From the NCBI GenBank assembly GCA_003168335.1, contig PMSM01000002.1, forward strand, positions 248,001-312,000: 64,000 nt of DNA. The letters are read 5' to 3'. A program made the position numbers and the translations under genes. Source of the DNA: Blastocatellia bacterium (GTDB taxonomy: Bacteria; Acidobacteriota; Blastocatellia; Pyrinomonadales; Pyrinomonadaceae). Of the stretch, positions 14,729 through 57,574 are shown in pieces; position 1 is the first letter of the stretch, and every line of letters starts with the position of its first letter. The notes beneath the pieces are model-generated. The model ran no database searches. It saw nothing but the letters and a program-made list of their open reading frames with translations, and was not told the origin of the DNA.

Positions 14729-14819
14729 GCTGGGACCGCGGACGTCCCGTCCGCTTCTGTCGCATCAATAATCTATTCGCGCTTCGCGCTCAATGCGGAC
14801 GAGACGTCGCGCTCCCAGC
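14729..14819. repeat. REPIN-like inverted repeat (GCTGGGA/TCCCAGC family)
   Basis: Outer arms GCTGGGA and TCCCAGC enclose internal hairpins (GCGGACGTCCCGTCCGC on the left, GCGGACGAGACGTCGCGC on the right) and a central CGCGCTTCGCGC palindrome. The same family occurs at 29875-30009, and a fragment appears to lie inside trpA. Confidence 0.8.
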
Positions 14820-29874: not shown

Positions 29875-30009
29875 CGCTGGGAGCGCGGACGTCCCGTCCG
29901 CATTGAGCGCGGAGCGCGAACAACCGTGGACGATTTGGGACCTCAAGGTCCAAACGAATTGAGCTGGCTTCGCTCGCTCCGGCGGACCGGGACGTCCGCG
30001 CTCTCAGCG
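29875..30009. repeat. REPIN-like inverted repeat upstream of mazG
   Basis: CGCTGGGAGCGCGGACGTCC (from 29875) pairs with GGACGTCCGCGCTCTCAGCG (to 30009); the centre holds GGACCTCAAGGTCC. Same family as 14729-14819. It occupies the 370 bp gap between the divergent mazG and DUF1844 genes. Confidence 0.85.
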
Positions 30010-46014: not shown

Positions 46015-46102
46015 GTTTAGCGGCGGGCTACCGCCCGCCTTTTTTGTTATAGAGTAAGATTTAGCAGGCGCCAAAAGGGCGGGCGGTGGCCCGCCGCTAA
46101 AC
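46015..46102. repeat. REPIN-like inverted repeat (GTTTAG family)
   Basis: GTTTAGCGGCGGGCTACCGC (46015) and GCGGTGGCCCGCCGCTAAAC (to 46102) with hairpin GGCGGGC-TACC-GCCCGCC; the left half is also a transcription terminator. Same family as 48475, 55304, 57523 and 59009. Confidence 0.9.
46022..46045 (+). terminator. Rho-independent terminator formed by a REPIN half
   Basis: GGCGGGC (46022-46028) and GCCCGCC (46033-46039) pair around TACC, and TTTTTT follows immediately (46040-46045). It lies 12 bp after the recJ stop. The hairpin is the left half of the REPIN at 46015. Confidence 0.85.
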
Positions 46103-48451: not shown

Positions 48452-48474
48452 CCGGCTTAGAAGAATCCTAATCT

Positions 48475-48531
48475 GTTTGGAGCGGGGCTACCGCCCCGCT
48501 TAGTTGGCGGGCAGTAGCCCGCCTCTAAAAC
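48475..48531. repeat. REPIN-like inverted repeat upstream of trpB
   Basis: GTTTGGAGCGGGGCTACCGC and GGCGGGCAGTAGCCCGCCTC, ending in CTCTAAAAC at 48531; hairpins GCGGGG-CTAC-CGCCCCGC-type on both halves. It ends 30 bp before the trpB ATG. Confidence 0.85.
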
Positions 48532-49793: not shown

Positions 49794-49985
49794 AGCCCGC
49801 AAAGCGGGCGGCATGTTAATAGCCCCGGGCGTGAGCCCGGGAAATCGAAGACCAGAACCGTGGTGAGCCCCGTCAGGGGCGACACACACACCGCGTCGCT
49901 TAGCTTGCTCATTTCTGCCGCCCGCTGCGCGGGCTTAGGATATTCTTAAGGACATCCAACCACGGGCTTACGCCCGTGGCTATTA
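49794..49985. repeat. Composite repeat array between trpB and trpA
   Basis: Several short palindromes in tandem: AGCCCGCAAAGCGGGC, CCCGGGCGTGAGCCCGGG, GCCCCGTCAGGGGC, GCCCGCTGCGCGGGC and CCACGGGCTTACGCCCGTGG, the first pairing with the fourth. It separates the two trp genes and runs to just before the trpA start region. Confidence 0.85.
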
Positions 49986-50022
49986 CATGTCGCGCCTTCG
50001 GCGCTTTGCTGGAGTCAAACTC

Positions 50023-50856
50023 TTGGGTCAAATCTCCGAAGCGTTTTCTAATCTCAAACGCGAAGGGAAGAAAGGTTTCATTCCCTTCATCACCGCCGGC
50101 GATCCGGATCTTGAAACTACTCTTGAGCTGATCGTTGAACTGGCCCGGGCCGGCGCGACGTTAATCGAGTTGGGCGTGCCGTTCACCGATCCCATGGCCG
50201 ACGGCCCGGTCATCCAGCGCGCTTCTGAGCGGGCCCTTCGTCATCCTTTTGGTCTGACCGAGATTCTGCAAGTCGTCGCCGAGGCCCGAAAGCAAACTGA
50301 CGTTCCGATCCTTCTCTTCAGTTACTTCAATCCTTTGCTGCAGTTCTGTGCGCATGAACGAGCGAGCAAGACCTCCGCGCTCCCAGCATTCAGCTTTGAG
50401 ATCCTTGCTCGCGAAGCCAAGCGCGCGGGCGTCGACGGCATCCTCGTGACCGATCTGGTGCCCGAAGAAGCGAGCGAGTTTGCGTCCGCCTTACGAGCAA
50501 ACGATCTTGACACGATCTTTCTGGTGGCGCCGACTTCAACGGACGAGCGTTTGCAGATGGTCGCCGAACGCGCGAGCGGTTTCATCTACGCCGTGTCGCG
50601 GGCCGGGGTCACCGGCGCGCGCGAAGAGATGAGTGCTGAAGCCGAGAAACTCGTTCGCCGCGTTCGTCAGTATTCAGATTTGCCGGTGGCGGTTGGCTTT
50701 GGAATATCCAAACCGGAGCAGGTTGCTGATGTCTGGCGATATGCCGATGCAGCCGTGGTCGGCTCGGCAATCGTCGGCGAGATCGAGCAGGCCAAGTCAG
50801 CGGCCGATGCGGTTTCCAGGGTTGGACAGTTCGCGCGGCAACTGATTTCGAGTTGA
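50023..50856 (+). CDS. trpA: Tryptophan synthase alpha chain
   Basis: A 277-residue alpha/beta barrel that cleaves indole-3-glycerol phosphate for TrpB. Signatures: GFIPFITAGDPD, IELGVPFTDPMADGP (catalytic Glu and Asp), GVDGILVTDLVPEEA and VSRAGVTGARE. I prefer the TTG at 50023 because GGAG lies eight bases upstream and MGQISEAF matches the family start; an ATG at 49987 also fits the frame, but its first codons (MSRLRRFAGV) come from a palindromic repeat. Between LLQF and FEILAREAK there are 16 extra residues, CAHERASKTSALPAFS, absent from the usual family and apparently repeat-derived. Confidence 0.94.
   Translation: MGQISEAFSNLKREGKKGFIPFITAGDPDLETTLELIVELARAGATLIELGVPFTDPMADGPVIQRASERALRHPFGLTEILQVVAEARKQTDVPILLFSYFNPLLQFCAHERASKTSALPAFSFEILAREAKRAGVDGILVTDLVPEEASEFASALRANDLDTIFLVAPTSTDERLQMVAERASGFIYAVSRAGVTGAREEMSAEAEKLVRRVRQYSDLPVAVGFGISKPEQVADVWRYADAAVVGSAIVGEIEQAKSAADAVSRVGQFARQLISS
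50347..50394. repeat. Repeat-derived 16-codon insert in trpA
   Basis: The 48 bp between the codons for LLQF and FEIL include GACCTCCGCGCTCCCAGCA, closely matching the right arms of the repeats at 14729 (GACGTCGCGCTCCCAGCA) and 29875 (GACGTCCGCGCTCTCAGC). The length is a multiple of three, keeping the frame. Confidence 0.65.
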
Positions 50857-53974: not shown

Positions 53975-55309
53975 ATGAGCGCATCGATTCTCATCAAAGG
54001 CGGCACTTTAGTGACGATGGACGAAAAAGATTCCATCGTGCGCGGCGATGTGTTGATTCGTGACGGGCGCATTGCTGAGATCGCCGGACATATTGAAGCT
54101 GGCGGGAGCGATGTGATCGACGCGGTAGGCTGTGCGGTGCTGCCGGGCTTTGTGCAGACACACTTGCATCTCTGTCAGACTTTGTTTCGCGGGGCGGCGG
54201 ACGATCTCTCTTTGATTGATTGGCTGAGAAAACGCGTGTGGCCGCTGGAAGCCGCGCACACGGCTGAATCAATTCGCGCCTCGGCGCGATTAAGTATCGC
54301 GGAGCTGATCAAGGGTGGCACGACCTGCGCGCTCACGATGGAAACCGTCAGACACACCGAAGAAGTTCTGCGCGTTGTCGAAGAAACCGGGTTCCGCGCC
54401 ACCGTCGGCAAGTGCATGATGGACAAGGGCGACGGTGTCCCCGCCGGGCTTTGCGAAAACACCAGCGAATCGATTCGTGAGTCGGTGGCGCTGATCGCAG
54501 AATGGCACGGACGCGCCGGCGGACGCGTGCGTTGTTGCTTCGCCCCGCGCTTCGCGATTAGCTGCACGCGCGAACTGTTAAGTGAGGTCTCGGAACTTTC
54601 AAAGAAGCATCAAGTGATGATCCACACGCACGCTGCTGAAAATAAAAACGAATGCGAGATTGTCGAAGGCGAGACTGGCCTGCGGAATGTTGCTTATCTC
54701 GATTCGCTGGGAATCTCGGGGACGCATGTGGTGCTCGCGCACTGTGTCCAGCTCGACGATGAAGAGATGGAAACGCTCGCGCGGACAAAGACGAACGTGG
54801 CGCACTGTCCGTCGTCGAATTTGAAACTCGGATCAGGCGTGGCGCGCATCACCGAAATGTTGTCGCGCGGGATCTCAGTTTCGCTGGGCGCGGACGGCGC
54901 TGCCTGCAACAACCGGCTCGACATGTTCACGGAAATGCGCACCGCGGCTTTGCTGCAGAAAGTTGTTCACGGCCCGGAGGCCCTGCCGGCAAAGCGCACT
55001 TTGCGGATGGCCACGATCGATGGGGCGCGGGCGCTGGGTCTGGAAAAGGAAATCGGCAGCCTCGAGACAGGCAAGCGCGCGGATGTGATCGTGGTCGATG
55101 TAGCTCAATTGCATTCGAGCCCGCGGCACGACGATGTGGTTTCAGCTTTGGTTTATTCGGCCGTCGCCGCAGACGTGCGGACCACAATAATTGACGGGCA
55201 AGTGTTGATGCTCGACGGCGAGTTGCTGGCGTTGGATGAAAGCGTCGTGATTGAGGAAGCGAATCGCGAAGCAGACGCATTGCGCGCGCGCGCTGGCATC
55301 TCGGTTTAG
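53975..55309 (+). CDS. Amidohydrolase, TRZ/ATZ or deoxyadenosine deaminase group
   Basis: A 444-residue amidohydrolase: the metal motif QTHLHLCQ at about 65, [15 protein letters not shown] and [12 protein letters not shown], and [15 protein letters not shown], the active-site aspartate region. This set and the [14 protein letters not shown] loop are typical of the chlorohydrolase/5'-deoxyadenosine deaminase (DadD/MtaD) branch, which deaminates adenosine-like compounds. The stop codon TAG (55307-55309) lies inside the left arm of a repeat element. Confidence 0.88.
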
Positions 55310-55371
55310 AGGCGGGCTACTGCCCGCCAGACATTTTGCGGAAGTCGGCGGGCGGTAGCCCGCCGCTAAAC
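55304..55371. repeat. REPIN-like inverted repeat providing the amidohydrolase stop
   Basis: GTTTAGAGGCGGGCTACTGC (55304) and GCGGTAGCCCGCCGCTAAAC (to 55371), hairpins GGCGGGC-TACT-GCCCGCC and GGCGGGC-GGTA-GCCCGCC. TAG in GTTTAG is the amidohydrolase stop, and ispE begins 14 bp after the right arm. Confidence 0.9.
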
Positions 55372-57463: not shown

Positions 57464-57574
57464 CTGAAAGCTAAGTAGCCGTCAACCCTCAGCTTTCAGC
57501 AAGACAATTTGAGTTGTGTCGGGTTTAGAAGCGGGCTACGGCCCGCTTGGTCGGGCGGTAGCCCGACTCTAAAC
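57464..57574. repeat. Two adjacent inverted repeats before rplY
   Basis: A short pair CTGAAAGCT/AGCTTTCAG (57464-57499) is followed by a GTTTAG-family element (57523-57574) with hairpins GCGGGC-TACG-GCCCGC and TCGGGC-GGTA-GCCCGA. It ends 34 bp before the rplY start. Confidence 0.85.

Follow-up and report, generated by a model that had tools for sequence, protein, structure and literature searches.

An in-frame insert in the tryptophan synthase alpha subunit of a soil-type acidobacterium, most probably derived from a mobile palindromic repeat

How does a core metabolic enzyme come to carry a stretch of residues that nearly all of its relatives lack? The question is raised by trpA in a 64,000-nucleotide stretch of DNA (the window; G000:C13:248001-312000) from the 5.16-Mb genome (14 contigs) of a soil-type acidobacterium. 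The gene, which encodes the tryptophan synthase alpha subunit (49987..50856, forward strand; 289 codons as an open reading frame), lies behind trpB and was assigned by TIGR00262, Pfam Trp_syntA and an alignment of TrpA homologues. Its product scores 265 bits with NCBIfam TIGR00262 (cut-off 102) and 4e-88 with Pfam Trp_syntA, and in alignment with homologues the catalytic motif ELGVPF[ST]DPMADG is intact. The TrpA fold is preserved in an AlphaFold2 model (mean pLDDT 82.6), for which 5ey5 is the best structural match (TM 0.91 by target). By family score, catalytic motif and fold alike the product is a TrpA, and judged from its sequence the enzyme would be intact, with the insert tolerated. The first 12 codons may be untranslated, because homologues start near the TTG at 50023, which suggests that this TTG is the true start. 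Another short repeat, GGCTATTACATGTCGCGCCTTCGGCGCTT, at window positions 49978-50006, makes up the apparent first codons of the gene.

The extra stretch, encoding CAHERASKTSALPAFS, is located at 50347..50394 on the forward strand. Its 16 residues sit between LLQF and FEILAREAK in the trpA frame and have no counterpart in the homologue alignment, which comprised 150 loci, 148 of them spanning the insertion site unbroken. A long insertion at this site was found in only two of the 148, the window TrpA (16 residues) and that of the congener G117 (25 residues), while a few betaproteobacterial TrpAs have 4-5 additional residues there. When an insert-less TrpA was used as query against 119 genomes of the order, only the matches in the window and in G117 were split by an insertion at this position, and a contig scan for TrpA beyond the known set gave distant TrpAs only, with no additional congener. 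The site is empty in the nearest relative, the sister species G113, and in G118. Measured against G113, the TrpA of the window is longer by 15 residues (45 bp) and not by 16, because the stretch replaces the Gly of nearly all relatives, so that F-G-L becomes F-[16 aa]-F. The 16 extra residues described in the earlier note are therefore a real stretch, matched in position by a long insertion in G117 alone among the 148 homologues, with the excess corrected to 15. In the alignment the insert is not conserved across relatives. No clean target duplication was found at the insert beyond a 3-bp TTC. Two further observations concern TrpA in related genomes. At G038:C125:12422-12691 (L233) the protein is apparently about 18 residues short at the same site (PLLQFGLEILAREAKRAG), which seems to be a deletion or an assembly fault, and trpA was not found in the genus genomes G114, G115 and G116, though two of the three are more than 90% complete.

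In the structural model, residues 119-134 have a pLDDT below 50 and lie between a helix at 114-119 and another at 137-147. By alignment the insert comes just after the equivalent of Salmonella TrpA Asn109, and so adjoins Asn108-Gly110. Asn104 and Asn108 of the Salmonella protein are residues that we take to face TrpB, and the insert may thus be near the alpha-beta interface, making 'surface loop' too simple a label. Of the proposal that the element landed in frame in a surface loop, the reading frame stands; the site is disordered in the model, but it adjoins residues that probably face TrpB.

The 3' part of the insert resembles a repeat that is abundant in the genome, denoted here family A. 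Positions 50362..50387 (forward strand) hold an apparently decayed repeat arm, GCGAGCAAGACCTCCGCGCTCCCAGC, read in the GTSALPA frame and identical at 22 of 26 positions to GCGGACGAGACGTCCGCGCTCCCAGC. A genome search found a second exact copy of the overlapping 20-mer AGACCTCCGCGCTCCCAGCA (50369..50388, forward strand) in an element around G000:C13:538834-538851 (L120). With at most one mismatch, GACNTCCGCGCTCCCAGC has 133 matches in the genome (68 + 65) compared with 0 for a reversed control, and the best alignment of the trpA arm scores 40, whereas none of 300 shuffles exceeded 31. The claim that a repeat arm lies in frame within trpA is well borne out by these matches, and the many homologues found by the genome search dispose of the concern that the insert might have none elsewhere. 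Two inverted dimers of the family lie in the window itself, at 14729..14819 (left arm 14729-14754, right arm about 14795-14819) and at 29876..30008 (left arm 29876-29901, right arm end 29991-30008). These are the intergenic repeats, placed at 14729 and 29875, to which the insert had been called nearly identical; both are real copies, the second beginning at 29876, though the likeness of the insert to the family covers only about 26 bp, at the 3' end of the 48 insert bases. The 5' portion of about 18 bases was compared with element interiors, and 122 of 500 shuffles did equally well.

Most family A copies are inverted dimers with arms about 100 bp apart, whereas trpA holds just one arm. The arm consensus, TGCGGACGRGACGTCCGCGCTCCCAGC, was drawn from 116 collected arms. 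A family A arm folds at -14.4 kcal/mol (z -2.57), whereas the trpA copy folds no better than shuffles (z +1.16), its hairpin having been lost either by decay or by selection against hairpin formation. As a 20-40 bp hairpin palindrome present in high copy number and as inverted dimers, family A shares these features with REP/REPIN elements. Like these (PMC3116915; PMC2817692), the repeats are short, high-copy palindromes, often inverted dimers and mostly intergenic, and repeats of the A-like, B and C families of the genus flank genes for REP-associated tyrosine transposases (RAYTs). Differences are that the GTAG end tag is absent from the family A consensus, that the trpA copy is a solitary decayed arm, and that no RAYT flanked by family A was found in G000 within about 1 kb of its 14 Y1_Tnp matches.

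All seven genomes of the genus contain members of the Y1_Tnp family, and three RAYT genes, each above the NF047646 cut-off, are abutted on both sides by a repeat: a family A variant in G113 (L277, 1330-2160), family B in G116 (L278, 695-1321) and family C in G000 (L275, 897-1551). This is the arrangement of REPtrons, in which a RAYT gene has repeats on both sides (PMC3733652). In the G113 gene the last codons of the transposase come from the flanking repeat. RAYTs resemble the enzymes of IS200/IS605 elements, which, as outlined in PMC6006769, act on DNA in single-stranded form and recognise the element by secondary structures at its ends; such a mode would fit the absence of a clean target duplication in trpA, and a RAYT is the probable agent by which the trpA copy moved.

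Insertion of family A into coding sequence is not restricted to trpA. Intragenic copies in G000 were judged in genes recognised by Pfam or NCBIfam. PurL (L291; NCBIfam 1024 bits) has about 47 in-frame residues from the family, and alpha-2-macroglobulin (L286) has two dimers, the first within the bait-region domain. Further copies occur within the DAO domain of an FAD-dependent oxidoreductase (L132), the N-terminal domain of a carbamoyltransferase (L293), the linker of a MoaD-MoaE fusion (L019) and an M14 peptidase-family protein (L289), and at two sites in an ActB-like oxidoreductase (L288). MurI (L011) and a membrane protein without an assigned family carry copies in frames other than that of the majority. 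Ten of 12 insertions, trpA included, are read in the AGSADV / GTSALPA frame (P = 5e-4 under equal frames; the null has three equal frames because the palindrome makes both strands equivalent). The trpA case is no lone accident: about ten genes carry insertions of this kind.

Orthologous sites in the other species of the genus may be empty, filled or differently filled. The oxidoreductase site is empty in G115 and G118 and that of the M14 peptidase in G118, while family A is present at the orthologous site of both genes in G113 and of alpha-2-macroglobulin in G116; the M14 peptidase of G116 has another repeat-like peptide in the same place (GGTGVSPVNGDTGRMPVP). The sites in PurL, ActB and the carbamoyltransferase are linker-like and variable in all species, which fits a filter for tolerance. 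A genome search with a 32-residue peptide returned mostly known copies or short spurious frames. Several candidates were dropped: open frames over intergenic copies, since most frames of a palindrome are open and these had no family support, and copies upstream of an aldehyde dehydrogenase (L010) and before LpxD, DUF72 and cyclophilin domains, which are probably 5' of the true starts.

The second long insertion in TrpA has a different source. The 25 residues in G117 are coded by GGAGGACAAGTCCTCCCTCTAAACAAATTGGTTTAGAGGCCGGACTTGTCCGGCC plus short flanks, an intact palindrome of family B that is unrelated in sequence to family A and folds at -40.2 kcal/mol (z -5.2). The 25-mer arm of this family, GTTTAGAGGCCGGACTTGTCCGGCC, has two more exact copies in G117. 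A tree of TrpB-TrpA did not settle the branching order within the genus; a tree of protein stretches from PurL, MurI and ActB placed G113 as sister to the window genome (support 99/98) and G117 elsewhere. Two independent insertions are the simplest account, because G113, with its empty site, adjoins the window genome while G117 stands apart, and the G117 palindrome was thus probably acquired independently.

Taken together, these data make it very likely that the trpA insert arose from a single arm of a REP/REPIN element of family A, spread by a RAYT, tolerated and since decayed. Family A probably spread through an IS200-like RAYT acting on single-stranded hairpins, and an arm would have entered trpA between the codon for Phe120 and the next, that of the near-universal Gly. 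The inserted length would have been a multiple of three bases and its frame the one that codes a mild, small-residue peptide (..TSALPA..), which could be tolerated as a disordered excursion in the segment that runs from beta strand 4 and its short helix to the following helix. The hairpin would later have eroded while the frame stayed open, with a presumably neutral effect on the enzyme. By the same process some ten genes of the genome would have received family A in frame, and sister species would have gained other REP families at the matching permissive sites, these being independent RAYT-type insertions into permissive loops that selection then filtered. The proposal that a mobile palindrome was tolerated in a core enzyme is therefore supported, both by the distribution of the insert among relatives and by its homologues in the genome.

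A different history, in which one ancestral REP insertion at the trpA site had its repeat swapped between lineages and was precisely lost in G113 and G118, appears rather unlikely. It draws on the fact that the window and G117 inserts both start with FC (TTYTGYGYS) and both have Phe just after the insert, a position that in relatives is Leu or another residue; with both opening on Cys and followed by Phe-Glu, a single old insertion with later replacement is conceivable. However, the position of the empty-site G113 beside the window genome would require clean losses, and the two repeats are unrelated in sequence. There is very little to suggest that trpA simply has a longer loop here and that its 16 residues resemble the repeat by chance: although the match covers just 26 of 48 bases, the insert has no excess folding and some betaproteobacterial TrpAs are extended at this site, chance would hardly give an exact 20-mer together with a one-mismatch 18-mer to a family with 133 matches and none in the control, nor the recurrence of that element, read in one frame, in many other genes of the genome. 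Retention of the insert as something useful, whether as a TrpB contact, a hairpin regulating the mRNA or a flexible linker, is improbable. The neighbourhood of the Asn108-Gly110 equivalents, near the presumed alpha-beta interface, and the preferred coding frame across many genes would favour it, but the trpA hairpin has decayed, the model shows a disordered loop and sister species lack the insert.

Insertion of a family A arm, as preferred here, has parallels elsewhere. Intragenic GTAG and CGTC REPs have been found in open reading frames of several species, with different REPs at about the same recB site in two Xanthomonas species (Di Nocera et al., 2013; PMC3733652). Likewise trpA holds different palindromes at the same site in two species, although the repeat sequences, phylum and genes are other ones, and that study emphasised DNA repair genes where the genes here are mostly metabolic. 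Compared with the CGTC REPs as described there (these include RPE-4 and RPE-6), the consensus of family A does not fit the combination of a terminal CGTC, an 8-9 bp stem opening with A-T pairs and a CCA-type tail. Rickettsia palindromic elements occur in frame in unrelated metabolic genes and give a recurring peptide (Ogata et al., 2000, 2002, as described in PMC10969869). Family A is similarly in frame in otherwise conserved genes and absent from relatives. By the description in PMC10969869 the Rickettsia elements are about 150 bp long and belong to families of that genus, whereas those seen here, in a 5.2-Mb acidobacterial genome, are arms of about 26 bp or dimers of about 100 bp.

Among the papers searched, none described palindromic repeats within genes of Blastocatellia. 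What these data add is a new lineage with a dozen cases and a measured frame bias, and a site in core metabolism that holds two unrelated palindromes in two species and is empty in the nearest relative. Protein-coding palindromes were earlier seen as a peculiarity of Rickettsia and then of scattered REPs; here they occur in some ten genes of a mid-sized genome outside Rickettsia, and sister species show the orthologous sites vacant, occupied by the same element or occupied by another. Which sites are open to mobile repeats, which frames survive and whether such loops gain a function is now directly testable on TrpA, PurL and MurI. More tentatively, this genus may harbour several unrelated palindrome families, linked to RAYTs, that repeatedly move into and out of the same tolerant codons in genes of core metabolism and displace one another there, with a preference for one coding frame; the palindromes would then act as a recurrent, shared source of protein loops. 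A third palindrome family, GTTTAGCGGCGGGCTACCGCCCGCC, forms four inverted pairs in the window (46015-46102, 48474-48531, 55304-55371 and 57523-57574), one of which stands just before trpB.
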